This document shows positions 24,813 to 33,443 of a DNA stretch of 64,000 nucleotides, piece by piece. Numbering within the stretch: position 1 is the stretch's first letter; each line of letters starts with the position of its first letter. The translations under genes were made by a program, and so were the position numbers. Source of the DNA: Haloarcula sp. H-GB4 (GTDB lineage: Archaea; Halobacteriota; Halobacteria; Halobacteriales; Haloarculaceae). The stretch is taken from positions 186,001-250,000 of the forward strand of contig NZ_JAVDDX010000001.1 of NCBI RefSeq assembly GCF_030848575.1, read 5' to 3'. The notes under the pieces were generated by a model. The model made no database searches and was not told where the DNA came from. It saw only the letters and a list, made by a program, of their open reading frames with translations.

Positions 24813-25286
24813 TCACGCCTCGATATCCGTCTCGCCGTGAACGTCGACGACCAGCACCGGCAGCCGCGTCCGGCGGAGCACCTTCTCTGTGACGCTGCCG
24901 AGGATGACGCGTTTGAGACCCGAGCGGCCGTGGGACCCCATCACGACGAGGTCGATGTCGTTGTCCTCGACGAACTTTCGGATGGCGCGGGCCGGCTCGC
25001 CAGCGGTGACGTGCTCTTCGACCGCGATGCCGTGCTCGGCGGCCCGGTCGCGGACGTAGCCGGTGGCTTCGTCTGCGTCGGCTTTCACTTCTGTCATCTC
25101 CTCCAGATTCCCCTGTCGGATTCGGTCGACCTGCTCTGTCCCCAGCGAGTAGCTGGTGGCGTCGACGTCGACGACGTACAACGCGTGGACCGTCGCGCCG
25201 TACTTCGAGGCGATATCGACTGCCTGATCGACCGCGTTTTCGGCGGTTTCGCTGCCGTCGGTCGGAACAAGAATATTGTCGTACAT
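24813..25286 (-). CDS. Universal stress protein UspA family
   Basis: 157 residues from MYDNILVPTDGSETAENAVD. The alpha/beta fold has the ATP-binding signature near the C-terminus: VMGSHGRSGLKRVILGSVTEKVLR, matching G-2x-G-9x-G(S/T). Such proteins often sit with transporters and are thought to modulate them. It begins five bases after the symporter stop, so it is co-transcribed and may regulate that transporter (inference). Confidence 0.93.
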   Translation of the reverse strand: MYDNILVPTDGSETAENAVDQAVDIASKYGATVHALYVVDVDATSYSLGTEQVDRIRQGNLEEMTEVKADADEATGYVRDRAAEHGIAVEEHVTAGEPARAIRKFVEDNDIDLVVMGSHGRSGLKRVILGSVTEKVLRRTRLPVLVVDVHGETDIEA

Positions 25287-25290
25287 TGGT

Positions 25291-26961
25291 TTAGTCGTCT
25301 GCGGGGGTGCCGCCACTGGTGCTATTGCCGACGACGTCTGCGGCGGTCTCTTGCTGTCCCATTGGTTCGGGGCTGTGACACTGTCGAACCATCTTCTTCG
25401 TCTCCAGGGGTGGCTCGGGCGTCGCCAGCGACACGGCGATGGTGACGATGAACACGAGTGGCGTCCCGATCAGCGCCGCGCCGATGGGCGGGACGTACTG
25501 GGCGTATATCGGGACGAGTGCGCCACCCTCTCCAGCGGCTGCGCCGAGCGCGCCGATGTAGTTCGGCAGGACGCTGTTGATAATCGAGGTGATCCAGATG
25601 AGTAGGCCGAGTATCATCCCGGCCAGTGCGCCCTGACGGTTCGTGTTCTCCCACCAGAGACCGAGGAAGAACATTGGGAACAGGACGACGCCGGCCAGCG
25701 AGAACGCGTAGGCGACCAGTTCGCCGATAAGCGCCGGTGGGTTGAACGCGGTCACCGTCACCAGTGCGCCCATGCCGATAATCGTCCCGCGACCGATGAG
25801 CACCTGCTGGCGCTGGGTCGCGTCGGGATTGATCAGTTCGGTGTAGATGTCGTGTGCGACCGCCGATGAGGCCGTGATGAACAGGCCAGCTGTCGTCGCG
25901 ATGGCGGCCGCCATCGCCCCGGCCGCGACGAGGCCGACGAACCACGTCGGGAGGTTCGCGAACTGTGCGGCGAGCACGACGATCACGTCACCTTCAGCGC
26001 CGGACATGCCGCCTTCCGCGGCGTAGGCGCTCGCGCCCGTCGTCGCTTGAAAGAGGTCGACACCGAAGGCCGCCATCGCGGGCGACGCCCAGTAGAGCAG
26101 GAGGATGAAGAACAGCCCCCACACGCAGGACCAGCGAGCGACGCGCTCGCTCCTGACCGTGTAGAATCGGACGAGGACGTGTGGCAGGCCACAGGTCCCG
26201 ACAATGAGCGAGAACGCCGTCGCGATCCAGAGGTAGAACGGCTGGTTCACGAACGGCGCGGAGAACTCGCGTCCGAGGTCGGCGATCAGTGCGCCGTACT
26301 CGATCTGCGGGAGCACCGTCGAGTATCCCTGCGAGAAACCGACGATGTACACGCCCGCGAGGAACGCGACGATGAGGATCGTGTACTGGACGGCCATGTT
26401 CTTGGTCGCGCCCAACATCCCCGAGAGCGCGAGGTAGCCGACGGTGATCGTCATCATCACGACGATCATCGGAATGATGTCGAGCCCGAAGACGTACTGG
26501 CCGACAAGCCCCATGCCGCGGGCCTGTCCGACGGAGTAGACGTACGCGATGAGCAGCGTGGTGAACGCCGCCAGCGCGCGGGCAGTCGGTGAATTGAACC
26601 GGTCACCCACGAAGTCCGGCGCGGTGTACTTTCCGAACCGCCGCATCTGCGCCGCCAGGAAGATGAGCAGGACGAAGTAGCCGGTCGTCCAGCCGACGAT
26701 GAACGCCAGCCCGTAGAAGCCAGAGAGCGCGACCAGTCCGGCGAGTCCCAGATACGAGGCGGCGGACATCCAGTTCGCGCCGATGGCCATCCCGTTCTCG
26801 ATGTTGCCGATGCCGCGGCCCGCGACCCACATCCCCTCGGTGTCGGCCACCTTGAACACGTAGCCGATGACGAGGAACGACGCCATCATCAGGAAGACGA
26901 TAATCGCCGGGACGAGCTTGAACGAGATGTCGAGCGCCTCTGCCTGTAGTGGGACCGTCAC
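25291..26961 (-). CDS. Sodium:solute symporter (SSS family), large subunit, probably acetate/short-chain carboxylate
   Basis: 556 residues with about thirteen helices. SSS hallmarks include WVAGRGIGNIENGMAIGANW in the helix 1-2 region and GTCGLPHVLVRFYTVRS. This class resembles ActP-type carriers that need a small partner (DUF4212), encoded immediately upstream with a four-base overlap. The order acetyl-CoA synthetase, small subunit, large subunit strongly suggests acetate or another short carboxylate as substrate. The C-terminal tail is hydrophilic and acidic. Confidence 0.9.
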   Translation of the reverse strand: MTVPLQAEALDISFKLVPAIIVFLMMASFLVIGYVFKVADTEGMWVAGRGIGNIENGMAIGANWMSAASYLGLAGLVALSGFYGLAFIVGWTTGYFVLLIFLAAQMRRFGKYTAPDFVGDRFNSPTARALAAFTTLLIAYVYSVGQARGMGLVGQYVFGLDIIPMIVVMMTITVGYLALSGMLGATKNMAVQYTILIVAFLAGVYIVGFSQGYSTVLPQIEYGALIADLGREFSAPFVNQPFYLWIATAFSLIVGTCGLPHVLVRFYTVRSERVARWSCVWGLFFILLLYWASPAMAAFGVDLFQATTGASAYAAEGGMSGAEGDVIVVLAAQFANLPTWFVGLVAAGAMAAAIATTAGLFITASSAVAHDIYTELINPDATQRQQVLIGRGTIIGMGALVTVTAFNPPALIGELVAYAFSLAGVVLFPMFFLGLWWENTNRQGALAGMILGLLIWITSIINSVLPNYIGALGAAAGEGGALVPIYAQYVPPIGAALIGTPLVFIVTIAVSLATPEPPLETKKMVRQCHSPEPMGQQETAADVVGNSTSGGTPADD

Positions 26962-27392
26962 TGCTCGACACCCCCGTCAGTGGCCGCTGGCTCGCCCGCC
27001 TCGGGAGCCGTGTTATCGACGGAATCGGAATCGATGCCGTACTTCTGGTCGAGACGGTCCCGGTAGCGGGTGTACACTACTGCCAGTATGAGCGCGCCCG
27101 TCGGCGCACCGAACGAAACGAGGAAGTAGTGTAGCGGGAAGCCGAATAGGGGCGTCTGCACGGTCATCATCTCCGGCGCAAGTGCGGTCAGCGTCACCGG
27201 GCCGAACACGACCAGCGCCCAGAGCACGAAACTGCTCCAGATGATCTTCAGATGGTCGCGCATGAACGGCGTGCTTGGTCGTAACAGGTTCACCTCCCTG
27301 TCGAGGTAATCGATGTCATCGTGGGCGGCCGCCGTGCCGCCATCTGGTTGTATATCTGACTCTTCTCGGTCTGCATGCGTGTCTCTTGACAT
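26958..27392 (-). CDS. DUF4212 small subunit of the SSS symporter
   Basis: 144 residues. A 38-residue hydrophilic N-terminus, two helices at about 50-72 and 82-108 and an acidic tail. The core FMRDHLKIIWSSFVLWALVVFGP and LHYFLVSFGAPTGALIL match the sodium/substrate symporter small-subunit family. The stop overlaps the large-subunit ATG, and 45 bases separate it from the acs stop. Confidence 0.9.
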   Translation of the reverse strand: MSRDTHADREESDIQPDGGTAAAHDDIDYLDREVNLLRPSTPFMRDHLKIIWSSFVLWALVVFGPVTLTALAPEMMTVQTPLFGFPLHYFLVSFGAPTGALILAVVYTRYRDRLDQKYGIDSDSVDNTAPEAGEPAATDGGVEQ

Positions 27393-27437
27393 GGGTTTGA
27401 AGGCTTGAAAATTCGTGGTGCTGTTCGCCGCTACGGC

Positions 27438-29432
27438 TCAGTCACCCTGGACTTTGGTCTCGATATCACTGACGACGTCAGGGTTTCGCAGCGTACTCGT
27501 ATCGCCCAGCTCTTCGCCGTTCGCGATGTCCTCTAGCAGGCGGCGCATGATCTTTCCGGAGCGAGTCTTCGGTAGCTCTGGCGTGAAGATGACCGCTTCC
27601 GGCCGCGCGATGGGCCCGATAGCGTCCTCGACACCCTCGATAATTGCACTGCGGAGTTCCTCGTCCTCGTCGTAGCCGTCCTCGGTGATGACGTATGCGT
27701 ACACCGCTTCGCCCTTGATATCGTGGTCGCCACCGACGACAGCGGCTTCAGCAACGCCTTCCACGCCGACGATAGCGCTCTCGATTTCCATCGTCCCGAG
27801 ACGGTGGCCGGAGACGTTGATGACGTCGTCGACCCGTCCCAGCACGGTGATGTAGCCGTCATCATCGATTTTCGCGCCGTCCTCGGGGAAGTACACCCAG
27901 TCGTCGGAGTCGTCGCTGTCGGTATCCGAGTACTCGGCCCAGTACTCGTTGATAAACCGTTCGTCGTTCTTGTACAGCGTCCGGAGCATCCCAGGCCACG
28001 GCTTGTCGACGGTCAGGTAGCCGGCACGGCCGGGTTCGACTTCTTCACCCTCGGTGTCAACGATGCGTACGTCGTTGCCCGGCAACGGCGGCCCGGCGGA
28101 CCCTGGTTTCATGTCTTTGACGCCGGGCAGCGTCGTTATCATCATGCCGCCAGTCTCGGTCTGCCACCAGGTGTCGACGACGGGACACTCCTCGTTGCCG
28201 ATGTGCTTGTAGTACCATTTCCAGGCCCGGGGGTTGATCGGCTCGCCGACCGTGCCCAGCAGGCGCAGGCTGGAGAGATCGTGTTTTTCGGGGTACTCCT
28301 TGCCCCACTTCATGAACGCGCGGATGGCCGTCGGCGCGGTGTACAGTTGGTCGGCCTCGTACTCCTCGACAATGTCCCAGAGGCGGTCCTTGTCGGGGTA
28401 GTCCGGCGTCCCCTCGTACATCATTGTCGTCGTCCCGAGCGCGAGCGGGCCGTAGACGATGTAGGAGTGGCCGGTAATCCAGCCGATGTCGGCAGAGCAG
28501 AAGTACGTGTCCTCGGGTTTGATGTCGAGCACTGCCTGCGAGGTCCAGGCTGCCCAGGCGAGGTAGCCGCCAGTGGAGTGTTTGACACCCTTCGGCTTCC
28601 CGGTGGTCCCGGAGGTGTACATGAGAAACAGCATGTCCTCGGCGTCGCGGTTGACCGGTTCGACCGTTGCGCCCTCGTTGTCGGCGATGACGTCCTCGAA
28701 GGCGACCTGGTTGTCCGCGTAGTCGTGGTCGAAGCCGTCGCCGTCCATCAGGCGCTCGGCGACGATAGCGCGTTCGACCTCGTGGTCGACGCCGCTCAGT
28801 CCTTCGTTGGCTTTGTCGAGGTGGTCAAGCGGGTCACCGCGGCGGTAGTAGCCGTCACAGGTGACCAGATACTCCGAGTCGGCGGCGTTCATTCGGGTCG
28901 CGAGCGCGTCCGCGGAGAAGCCGGCGAACACGACGGAGTGGGGTGCGCCGATGCGGGCACAGGCCAGCATGGCGATGGGGAGCTGCGGAATCATCGGCAT
29001 GTACATCGTCACGACATCGTCCTCGCCGACGCACATCTCCCGCAGGCCGGCCGCGAACTCGTTGACTTTCCGGTGGAGTTCCTCGTAGGTGTAAGTGATG
29101 TTGTCTTCTTCGACTGGCTCGCCGACCCACTCGATAGCGGCTTCGTCGCCGCGCTCATCGAGGTGCCGGTCCAGGCAGTTCGCTGAGGCGTTCAGTGTGC
29201 CGTCCGTGAACCACTCGTAGAACGGCGGGTTCGAGTCGTCGAGTACCTGATCGTACTCTTCCTCCCAGTCGAGGAGGTCGGCGGCTCCCTCCCAGCACTC
29301 CGGCCAGTTCTCCTCGAACTCGTCGTAGATACCCTCGTCCGTGACGTTCGCCTGCTCGACGAACGACTCCGGGGGCTCGAAAACCTCCTGCTCCGCAAGC
29401 CGCGCTTCTAGCTGGACATCTTCATCTGACAT
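27438..29432 (-). CDS. acs: Acetyl-CoA synthetase (AMP-forming), first copy
   Basis: 664 residues, normal for AMP-forming Acs. It activates acetate with ATP and CoA. The adenylation core has YTSGTTGKPKG in the P-loop, DTWWQTETGG preceding the AMP-contact region, and TRSGKIMRRLL with the catalytic lysine near the C-terminus, the site of regulatory acetylation in other Acs. It is first gene of the leftward acetate-uptake operon. Close paralogue at 31336-33279, so one copy may serve a different acid or condition. Confidence 0.95.
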   Translation of the reverse strand: MSDEDVQLEARLAEQEVFEPPESFVEQANVTDEGIYDEFEENWPECWEGAADLLDWEEEYDQVLDDSNPPFYEWFTDGTLNASANCLDRHLDERGDEAAIEWVGEPVEEDNITYTYEELHRKVNEFAAGLREMCVGEDDVVTMYMPMIPQLPIAMLACARIGAPHSVVFAGFSADALATRMNAADSEYLVTCDGYYRRGDPLDHLDKANEGLSGVDHEVERAIVAERLMDGDGFDHDYADNQVAFEDVIADNEGATVEPVNRDAEDMLFLMYTSGTTGKPKGVKHSTGGYLAWAAWTSQAVLDIKPEDTYFCSADIGWITGHSYIVYGPLALGTTTMMYEGTPDYPDKDRLWDIVEEYEADQLYTAPTAIRAFMKWGKEYPEKHDLSSLRLLGTVGEPINPRAWKWYYKHIGNEECPVVDTWWQTETGGMMITTLPGVKDMKPGSAGPPLPGNDVRIVDTEGEEVEPGRAGYLTVDKPWPGMLRTLYKNDERFINEYWAEYSDTDSDDSDDWVYFPEDGAKIDDDGYITVLGRVDDVINVSGHRLGTMEIESAIVGVEGVAEAAVVGGDHDIKGEAVYAYVITEDGYDEDEELRSAIIEGVEDAIGPIARPEAVIFTPELPKTRSGKIMRRLLEDIANGEELGDTSTLRNPDVVSDIETKVQGD

Positions 29433-29502
29433 GGTCTATCATCGATATTTCACAGCGGCCATATAAACAGGGGGTCTAACTACGATAACATGAAACAGGG
29501 TT

Positions 29503-31194
29503 TCAGTTGTCGACCGGCTGTCGCGGTTCGGTCGGACGGTCGTCGAAAAACGCGGTCAGGACCTTCTGCTGTGCCTTCCTGAGGTGATTATGCAACGTCG
29601 GCGACGAGACGTCCAGCGAGTCCGCTAGCTCCTCAGCGGTCGAGCCCCGAGGCCACTCGAAATAGCCGCTGTGGTAGGCCGCCTGAAGAACGGTCTCTTG
29701 CCGGTCTGAGAGGGTGTCGGTCAGTCGGTCGCGGAATCCAGTGTCCGTCTCGGCCGGCCGTTCCGTCTCTCGCTTCGCTGCTAACGATGTCTCCCTGTAG
29801 GCGTCGGTGACGGCGTTGACTGTTGGTCTGATATCGGCCTCACCGGGGAGCTCGACTGCGATAGTCGCGACACCGTCAGTGGCTGTCACAGACCGGATGC
29901 GCCCGCCGCTTTCGACCAACTGTAGTGCTGGCGTATCGGTGACGACAACTTCCAGTAACACGCCGTCGCTGTGCTGTTCGAGGAGTCTGGCGTCGGCCAC
30001 GCCGTCATCGTCGTCCGCATACGAGAGTATCGCGTCAGCCGAAGCGCCTTCGACCATCAGATAATACAGCAGTGACTGGCCCGCAACAGGGACGACGCCG
30101 GACAGTTCGACCGTACACTGTAACGCTTCGGAGACCCCGACGGTGAAGGTTCGCTCGTCCCCACAGTGGAACTCCAGCTCGGTCACCGTGTCGGCAAGCA
30201 GGAGGCGCTTGCGTTCGGCGGCGACCTGTGCGTGGCCGATCTGGACCCCGAGCGCGGACAGTACGGCGCGTTCCGCGTCGGTAAGCCCCTCGTTGGCTCC
30301 GACCCCGATGACACCGGAGACCGCGTTTTCCCTGACTAGCGGGACCAGCGCGACCGGTCCGGCGCTGTCGTCGACGACACGAACCTCGCCCACGTCGAGC
30401 GGGGCGGTGACTGACTCGGTATGCTCATCGACCTGCTGCTCGACGGTCGACTCCGAGACCTCTGTCGTGGCGCGCGGTGTCAATCCATCGCCGGTACGCT
30501 CGGCGAGCCAGGCGAACTCGAAGCCCGCCGTCTCGGTCAGGTGGTCACAGACCGTTGTCGCAATCGCTTCATCAGTTGCAGCGGCCGCAAGCGTCTCGCT
30601 GACCGCCGTAATCCAGCCAACGGTTCGTTGCGGCTCGCTTGCGGACGCCTGCCCGCCGGACCCGTCGACGGCCGCGACGATGGTTTCGCGGTCTGGTTCG
30701 TCGAGCAGCGGGTCCAGCCGGTCGAGTCGGTCCCAGCCGCCGAGCGCACAGACGATGTCCGGCGGAACGCCATCGTCCAGCAGGCTCGCCGCGAACCGCC
30801 ATCGGAGGTCGCGTGATGAAACCTCCTTCAGGTGTGGTGTCGTCTCAGCGGCTCGGTCGGCTACCTCATTGACCAGCATCTGGAGCCGACGTGGGGAGAC
30901 GGAAAACAGCGGCTCGTCGTCGTCCATTCCGGCCGAATTCGTGTACTTCCGCATGTCGTGTTCGACCGAATCCGGGAGGTACGTCTCGCGGACTACTTCC
31001 CCGTCCTCCCGAACAGCCAGCAGGCGATATCCCTCGAACTCGACGATATCGGCCAACCGTACGGCGGTCATCTCCGCCGGGCGGAGTCCGACCTCCGCAC
31101 CGAGCCGGAGCACGAGGTCGGATCGGTGTGTCTCGGCTGCGCGCCGGAGCTGTTCGTACCCTCGCTCACCGATGCGGTCCGATTCGCCGTCCAT
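29503..31194 (-). CDS. Bat-type transcription regulator with an integrase-like N-terminal domain
   Basis: 563 residues in three parts. Residues 1-180 look like a tyrosine-recombinase catalytic domain: AEVGLRPAEMTAVRLADI with Arg38 as box I arginine, then SSRDLRWRFAASLLDDG (box II region) and LGGWDRLDRL. The box II histidine is Arg128 and no catalytic tyrosine is seen, so it is likely inactive. Residues about 190-330 are GAF-like. Then comes the Bat-associated domain and the bacterioopsin-activator helix-turn-helix (HTH_10) at about 500-550 (TAEELADSLDVSSPTLHNHL). It lies between two acs genes and probably controls acetate metabolism (inference). Confidence 0.85.
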   Translation of the reverse strand: MDGESDRIGERGYEQLRRAAETHRSDLVLRLGAEVGLRPAEMTAVRLADIVEFEGYRLLAVREDGEVVRETYLPDSVEHDMRKYTNSAGMDDDEPLFSVSPRRLQMLVNEVADRAAETTPHLKEVSSRDLRWRFAASLLDDGVPPDIVCALGGWDRLDRLDPLLDEPDRETIVAAVDGSGGQASASEPQRTVGWITAVSETLAAAATDEAIATTVCDHLTETAGFEFAWLAERTGDGLTPRATTEVSESTVEQQVDEHTESVTAPLDVGEVRVVDDSAGPVALVPLVRENAVSGVIGVGANEGLTDAERAVLSALGVQIGHAQVAAERKRLLLADTVTELEFHCGDERTFTVGVSEALQCTVELSGVVPVAGQSLLYYLMVEGASADAILSYADDDDGVADARLLEQHSDGVLLEVVVTDTPALQLVESGGRIRSVTATDGVATIAVELPGEADIRPTVNAVTDAYRETSLAAKRETERPAETDTGFRDRLTDTLSDRQETVLQAAYHSGYFEWPRGSTAEELADSLDVSSPTLHNHLRKAQQKVLTAFFDDRPTEPRQPVDN

Positions 31195-31335
31195 GCGTTT
31201 CGGGGATTCACAGAATATCGAAATAAGCGTTGCGTCCGATGCGCGGATACATACGAGTAAAACAATAGTAAAGCGATCGTCGGAGACGTCGTCGTCGCGA
31301 GTATATTTCGGAAATACAGAGAAAGCCGAAACAGC

Positions 31336-33279
<1,944 letters not shown>

Positions 33280-33443
33280 CAGTTGACAGTACATCGCCGC
33301 ACGCAAAAAATATCCTATCTAATTGTGTACGATTCGCTGCGAGAGCCCTACCGGTGCGGCCGGCCGTTCTCACTTTCGACACTGGCGACGGAACTTATAT
33401 TGAGTCCTGCGGACAACGAGTGTACAAGAGGCCGGTACGGGGT

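Follow-up and report, generated by a model that had tools for sequence, protein, structure and literature searches.

An apparently inactive Xer/Cre-type recombinase domain in a haloarchaeal regulator encoded between acetyl-CoA synthetase genes, and lox-like candidate operators at its own promoter

The window considered here is a 64,000-nucleotide stretch of Haloarcula sp. H-GB4 (contig NZ_JAVDDX010000001.1, positions 186,001 to 250,000). Its minus strand carries, in the direction of transcription, an acetyl-CoA synthetase reading frame in the position of acs8 (31336–33306), a gene for a 563-residue regulator (29503–31194), a second acetyl-CoA synthetase gene in the position of acs7 (27438–29432), a region with a small membrane-protein reading frame (26962–27437), a sodium:solute symporter that is the counterpart of the acetate transporter ActP (25291–26961), and a universal stress protein corresponding to uspA28 (24813–25316). 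The regulator was delimited from the ORF list with Pfam and NCBIfam, and its neighbors were identified from the ORF list and locus comparison; the small frame, which lies between acs7 and the symporter at the position of HVO_A0155, was read from its translation and is, by eye, a putative DUF4212 symporter subunit. A preliminary description of this DNA had placed the regulator between duplicated acs genes with a symporter downstream, and both the reading frames and the locus comparison agree. The arrangement, domain order and adjoining acs genes included, extends across the haloarchaea: throughout the class Halobacteria, acs genes stand on either side of the regulator, on one strand, at 84 of 88 loci, and the remaining four keep the upstream acs, two of them lying near a contig end. 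Downstream, the 88 loci follow the order of the window, with the symporter in most and the universal stress protein often. Two loci (L067 and L083) have no downstream acs and carry a symporter close behind the regulator, with the upstream acs kept.

The N-terminal domain of the regulator is found in 236 of 292 Halobacteria genomes, a count that includes the recombinase-only relatives discussed below. Outside the class, some 200 genomes of the phylum gave no match to a full-length profile at the threshold used. As to a viral origin of the domain, viral contigs scanned with one divergent query, a recombinase-only paralogue, yielded no relative. In Haloferax volcanii, the acs7–HVO_A0155–ssf–uspA28 operon is transcribed when cells grow on acetate but not when they grow on glucose or on casamino acids; its symporter is an acetate transporter (PMC7746861). 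There, HVO_A0156 is acs7 and HVO_A0158 is acs8; gene numbering and conserved order together lead one to expect the counterpart of the regulator at HVO_A0157, on which no published work was found in the literature searched.

The regulator is assembled from four parts, all on the minus strand: a tyrosine-recombinase catalytic domain, inactive by its residues (residues ~8–180; 30655–31173), a GAF domain that is the presumed sensor (209–322; 30229–30570), a BAT domain (335–489; 29728–30192), and an HTH_10 DNA-binding domain (495–546; 29557–29712). The last two are matched by Pfam far above their curated cut-offs (BAT, E 1.1e-43, 149.2 bits vs. 25.8; HTH_10, E 3.1e-21, 75.4 bits vs. 23.1). The Pfam Phage_integrase match spans residues 12–157; residues 1–180 alone score above the curated cut-off (E 1.2e-6), and the whole protein slightly below it. 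NCBIfam XerA_Arch (E 4.8e-12) aligns residues 11–151 with model positions 100–239 of 263, so the protein has just the catalytic half of a recombinase and lacks the N-terminal core-binding (SAM-like) domain. The proposal that a tyrosine-recombinase domain is fused to a GAF/Bat/HTH_10 regulator is thus upheld by both profile collections, and structure prediction supports it as well. An AlphaFold2 model of residues 1–185, built with 14 aligned sequences, reached a mean pLDDT of 90.3 and a pTM of 0.84, and its top match among PDB structures is XerA (5hxy; Z 18.3 over 167 residues at 3.9 Å), followed by Xer, integron, XerH, Cre, and the lambda and P2 integrases. The phage repressors MrpR/YopR and SroF are also among the structure matches (Z 12.8–14.8), and Foldseek and VIA likewise match the predicted domain to XerA and Cre. 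A Xer/Cre fold for residues 1–180 is in this way confirmed as a prediction of high confidence; the full-length model has a poor overall arrangement (pTM 0.41). The closest named relative, in Haloarcula japonica, is 93% identical. Across lineages the sensor middle varies, being GAF, PAS plus GAF, or two PAS plus GAF (L123, L070, L112, L086, and others). The recombinase domain and HTH_10 are retained at both ends while this sensor part changes.

Within the recombinase domain, the residues fall into two classes with very different fates. A profile alignment with Cre (P1 record) pairs Arg38 with Arg173, Arg102 with Arg259, Arg128 with His289, Arg131 with Arg292, Trp154 with Trp315, and Leu163 with Tyr324, the Arg102–Arg259 pairing coming from a modest profile alignment (hhalign probability 58–64%). 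Arg38 is the box I arginine, Arg131 the box II arginine, and Trp154 the box III His/Trp. Arg128 occupies the position of the box II histidine (Arg128-x-x-Arg131), and Leu163 that of the catalytic tyrosine, nine residues after the tryptophan (W+9), where Haloarcula has leucine. The alignment agrees with the earlier readings of Arg38 as box I arginine and of Arg128 at the expected histidine. Among 74 non-redundant fusion members (<85% identity), the box I arginine is present in 64, the box II arginine in all 74, and the box III tryptophan in 67; the box II histidine is found in 4, most others having Arg or Ser, and no lysine is conserved at the turn corresponding to the β-hairpin. Tyrosine at W+9 is present in 45 of the 74, having changed at least 11 times on the family tree, and a few of the members that keep it also retain the box II histidine. 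The earlier statement that no catalytic tyrosine is visible therefore holds for this protein but not for its family; the accompanying view that the domain is apparently inactive stands, its active site being broken by loss at the Lys, His, and Tyr positions. Four residues, Arg102, Arg103 (together encoded at 30886–30891, minus strand), Met106, and Arg131, are invariant in all 74 members, with Arg24, Gly36, Glu41, Arg69, and Leu130 among the further invariant positions. Arg103 and Met106, invariant in the fusions, are new relative to recombinase-only relatives. As far as the alignments go, the fusion family is one in which catalytic residues are gone and the putative DNA-facing residues are retained.

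The likely DNA partners of these residues are found at the regulator's own promoter. Two copies of an inverted repeat, TTTCG-N16-CGAAA, lie upstream of the gene as candidate operators. The proximal copy (31198–31223, no strand assigned) runs from −29 to −4 relative to the ATG and overlaps a TATA-like CTTATTTCG, and the distal copy (31306–31331, no strand assigned) lies a few bases past the acs8-like stop codon, 108 bp away from center to center. When the 200 bases 5′ of the regulator at 86 loci were compared with shuffled sequence, TTCG-N16-CGAA occurred in 59 regions (1.9 in shuffles) and TTCG-N15-CGAA in 30 (2.4 in shuffles); other spacers were near chance, except for a mild excess at 6–8. 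The same test gave no enrichment of the lox-like repeat at the acs7 and acs8 promoters. The copies share the consensus GTTTCG-N15/16-CGAAAC, whose middle is degenerate. The proximal repeat is present at 80 of the 86 loci, the distal at 80, and both at 76, and the two share one spacer length in 72 of these 76 pairs. Among 44 representatives (<65% identity), the corresponding numbers are 40, 39, and 37, with the spacer shared in 34 of 37. The spacer is 15 in some lineages (L070, L088, L095, and others) and 16 in most, and no recognizable repeats were found 5′ of the regulator at L110 and L114. In nearly all cases the proximal copy starts 24–33 bases 5′ of the start codon, and the distal copy is mostly found around −120 to −140. 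The distances between them are mostly 95–110 bp, clustering at 95–98 and 104–109 with none at 99–103; helical phasing of the pair is not claimed, the Rayleigh statistic being similar at periods of 10–12 bp.

Of the three TTTCG-N16-CGAAA copies in the entire genome (4.19 Mb), two are those at the regulator promoter; a reversed control pattern has no occurrence. The third copy (L136, G000:C1:467241–467266) is intergenic and probably a chance occurrence, no link having been found; by eye, pilin-like genes and a small regulator lie near it. Class-wide counts of the pattern are not diagnostic, because a 10-base pattern arises by chance in every genome. Haloarchaeal transcripts are often leaderless, so a protein seated on the proximal repeat, which stretches from the TATA-like CTTATTTCG almost to the ATG, would cover the core promoter, and autorepression would be the natural reading.

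The geometry of these repeats is that of loxP, which, taken from the two half-sites annotated for it in the P1 record, reads TTCG-N16-CGAA. An inverted repeat of this lox type is present at the regulator promoter, with a spacer of 15 in some lineages. The regulator thus shares with the Cre/loxP system the catalytic-domain fold, the TTCG/CGAA half-site with 16 bases between, and the recognition-helix arginine. It differs in having neither the core-binding domain nor the Lys, His, and Tyr residues, and in that its repeats lie over a promoter and their inner 15–16 bp are not conserved. At base pair 10 of loxP, Cre Arg259 makes a hydrogen bond, and its replacement by alanine nearly abolishes specificity there; Cre reads the inner bases 5–7 largely through its core-binding domain (PMC6486577). 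Within CGAA, base pair 10 is the G. The missing core-binding domain makes coherent structural sense of short half-sites separated by a spacer that is long and degenerate but fixed in length. A five-base likeness to loxP could possibly have arisen by chance; three features nonetheless point the same way, namely the spacing, where the invariant Arg102 sits, and the missing domain. With Lys, His, and Tyr gone, recombination at these repeats is not expected. The suggestion that the recombinase fold serves as an extra DNA-binding module has consequently become much better supported, by an invariant arginine of the putative recognition helix and by lox-like repeats at the regulator's own promoter. 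The companion idea, of a regulator spanning two distant sites, survives in part: there are two repeats, mostly 95–110 bp apart, but both are at its own promoter rather than at two remote genes.

Relatives consisting of the recombinase domain alone provide an independent view of which part of the protein reads such sites. These proteins of ~200 residues, one of them a paralogue in the same genome (L122:5694–6293, G000:C2), had Arg, Lys, His, Arg, Trp, and Tyr complete in the four examined. They are widespread in haloarchaea and often multi-copy (L118, L120, L138–L167). Their promoters bear conserved palindromes, TTCGTAGTTATCCGATAACTACGAA at L120, TGTCGTAGTTGTAGTATAACTACGACA at L118, and CGACTT-N7-AAGTCG in many others, or else TCGTAGTT-N7-AACTACGA, plus a second site near the start, and such relatives are possibly self-regulating or regulators too. 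The palindromes are related to the fusion repeats, not identical: all have a CG pair outside the inner 15–17 bases, as the fusion repeats do, but their inner bases are conserved even though the core-binding domain is absent here as well. Since these relatives have no HTH_10, their CG-bearing promoter palindromes indicate the recombinase domain, rather than HTH_10, as the probable reader of the repeats.

The strongest competitor assigns the repeats to HTH_10, or to HTH_10 and BAT together as a dimer, and leaves the recombinase domain a dimerization or protein-contact module only. The gene adjoining the repeats does encode an HTH_10, and inverted repeats spaced by two turns are frequent targets of HTH dimers. 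Yet a contact module need not retain DNA-facing arginines, and here the Arg102–Arg103 helix and the box II Arg131 are invariant; the half-site and its spacing match loxP, with Arg102 at the place of Cre Arg259; and related palindromes stand at promoters of relatives that lack HTH_10 altogether. Other BAT/HTH_10 loci fetched from the same genome showed no paired repeats of the lox-like kind, though their specificity may differ. We regard this alternative as unlikely. Decay of the active-site residues could also be taken to mean that the protein is an ordinary Bat-like regulator whose recombinase domain is vestigial and free of functional constraint, but a domain kept across the class, with invariant Arg103 and Met106 that are new compared with recombinase-only relatives, makes this very unlikely. 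It is very improbable that the tyrosine-keeping lineages are still recombinases and the two repeats their recombination sites: tyrosine at W+9 in 45 of 74 members, joined in a few by the box II histidine, would suit such a role, but the β-hairpin lysine has been lost from all the fusions, the histidine is nearly always gone, the tyrosine has been lost many times, the repeats remain conserved in tyrosine-less lineages such as Haloarcula, and excision of ~100 bp would delete the regulator's promoter. Equally remote is the idea that the repeats terminate transcription of the upstream acs gene or fold within its mRNA. Although the distal copy lies directly 3′ of the acs8-like stop codon, a 5–6 bp stem around a fixed loop of 15 or 16 bases is a weak hairpin, the second copy covers the regulator's core promoter, and the spacer length is common to both copies in 34 of 37 cases.

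A second conserved element, distinct from the lox-like repeats, is found at the acs7 promoter. Locus comparison delimits it as TAGTTAGA-N7-TTTAT (29463–29482, minus strand), a candidate activator site together with the TATA box of the acs7-like gene; the element lies directly 5′ of the TATA box, and other lineages carry GCATAATTAG or GCACACCTAGA. In the form seen in Haloarcula, the copy at acs7 is the only one in the genome. We consider it a candidate HTH_10 site. The conserved gene order, this promoter element, and the induction by acetate published for the acs7 operon together suggest that the regulator controls acetate use.

The favored reading is then as follows. A tyrosine recombinase of the Xer/Cre type would have supplied its catalytic domain to a haloarchaeal regulator, in which the domain would now serve solely to bind DNA. 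Each GTTTCG-N15/16-CGAAAC repeat would be bound by two copies of this domain, each copy reading one CGAAA with its Arg102–Arg103 helix, as the catalytic domain of Cre does on the CGAA of loxP. Occupation of the proximal repeat would block transcription of the regulator, and the distal repeat could pair with the proximal one through recombinase-type protein contacts, giving a loop. The GAF/BAT middle may sense a signal connected with acetate or with the energy state of the cell. HTH_10 would act on the acs7–symporter operon at the different element 5′ of its TATA box. We infer the assignment of domains to sites, repression, looping, the signal, and acs7 activation from the comparisons above. 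The whole, a dead recombinase domain binding repeats at its own promoter for autoregulation, coupled to a sensor and to an HTH_10 acting on the acs7–symporter operon, appears to us reasonably probable; binding of the repeats by the recombinase domain is likelier than the whole, and looping between them less likely. A bolder version, in which the dead Cre/Xer-like domain would form a synapse of the two lox-like repeats and the GAF/BAT signal would make or break the loop, switching acetate metabolism through the second DNA-binding domain, is a doubtful proposition. Were it true, a whole archaeal class would carry a recombination machine remade as a repressor that loops DNA under ligand control. 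On the favored reading itself, a family now filed among archaeal recombinases would gain a concrete, testable role in transcription regulation, with probable operators named and a link to the operon for acetate uptake and activation of most haloarchaea. Haloferax volcanii, genetically tractable and with an acs7 operon known to be acetate-induced, would allow a direct test.

The architecture itself has been listed before. A review of the tyrosine recombinases of archaea, published in 2021 in FEMS Microbiology Reviews, describes, in its entry on fam30-04, large proteins with Phage_integrase, BAT, and HTH_10, some with GAF_2 (PMC8371274). The regulator, a single protein that combines Phage_integrase with BAT and HTH_10 and is of the kind that occurs with or without GAF, has exactly this architecture, and the fusion as such is accordingly less novel. 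That entry files the family among recombinases, and in it catalytic residues, gene context, operators, and function are not analyzed (PMC8371274). The gene order, the active-site decay, the promoter repeats, and the palindromes of the relatives were not found in the literature searched; what is new here is the acs–acs position, the catalytic decay with retention of DNA contacts, the two promoter repeats, and the related palindromes of recombinase-only relatives.

Among characterized proteins, Bat of Halobacterium, the bacterioopsin activator, shares BAT and HTH_10 with a sensor upstream; it has no recombinase domain and controls the bop genes. XerA (5hxy, 4a8e) is the closest solved structure by both fold and sequence, but in full length it has an N-terminal domain and a complete active site. 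The nearest functional parallels are the repressors MrpR/YopR of Bacillus prophage SPbeta and SroF of phi3T (PDB 8a0a, 8bj6, 9rgl, 9rd5), which have the tyrosine-recombinase fold. MrpR is a DNA-binding repressor of this fold without recombinase activity (PMC10516654). It differs in being a bacterial prophage repressor with its own core-binding domain and no sensor or HTH, whereas the regulator is chromosomal and archaeal, lies at a metabolic locus, and is fused to GAF, BAT, and HTH_10. By analogy, MrpR provides a precedent, showing that conversion of a recombinase into a repressor has happened elsewhere. The haloarchaeal regulator would be a chromosomal, sensor-fused case of such evolution, in which the loss of catalysis and the apparent retention of DNA reading can be followed residue by residue, and in which the candidate operator keeps the geometry of loxP.
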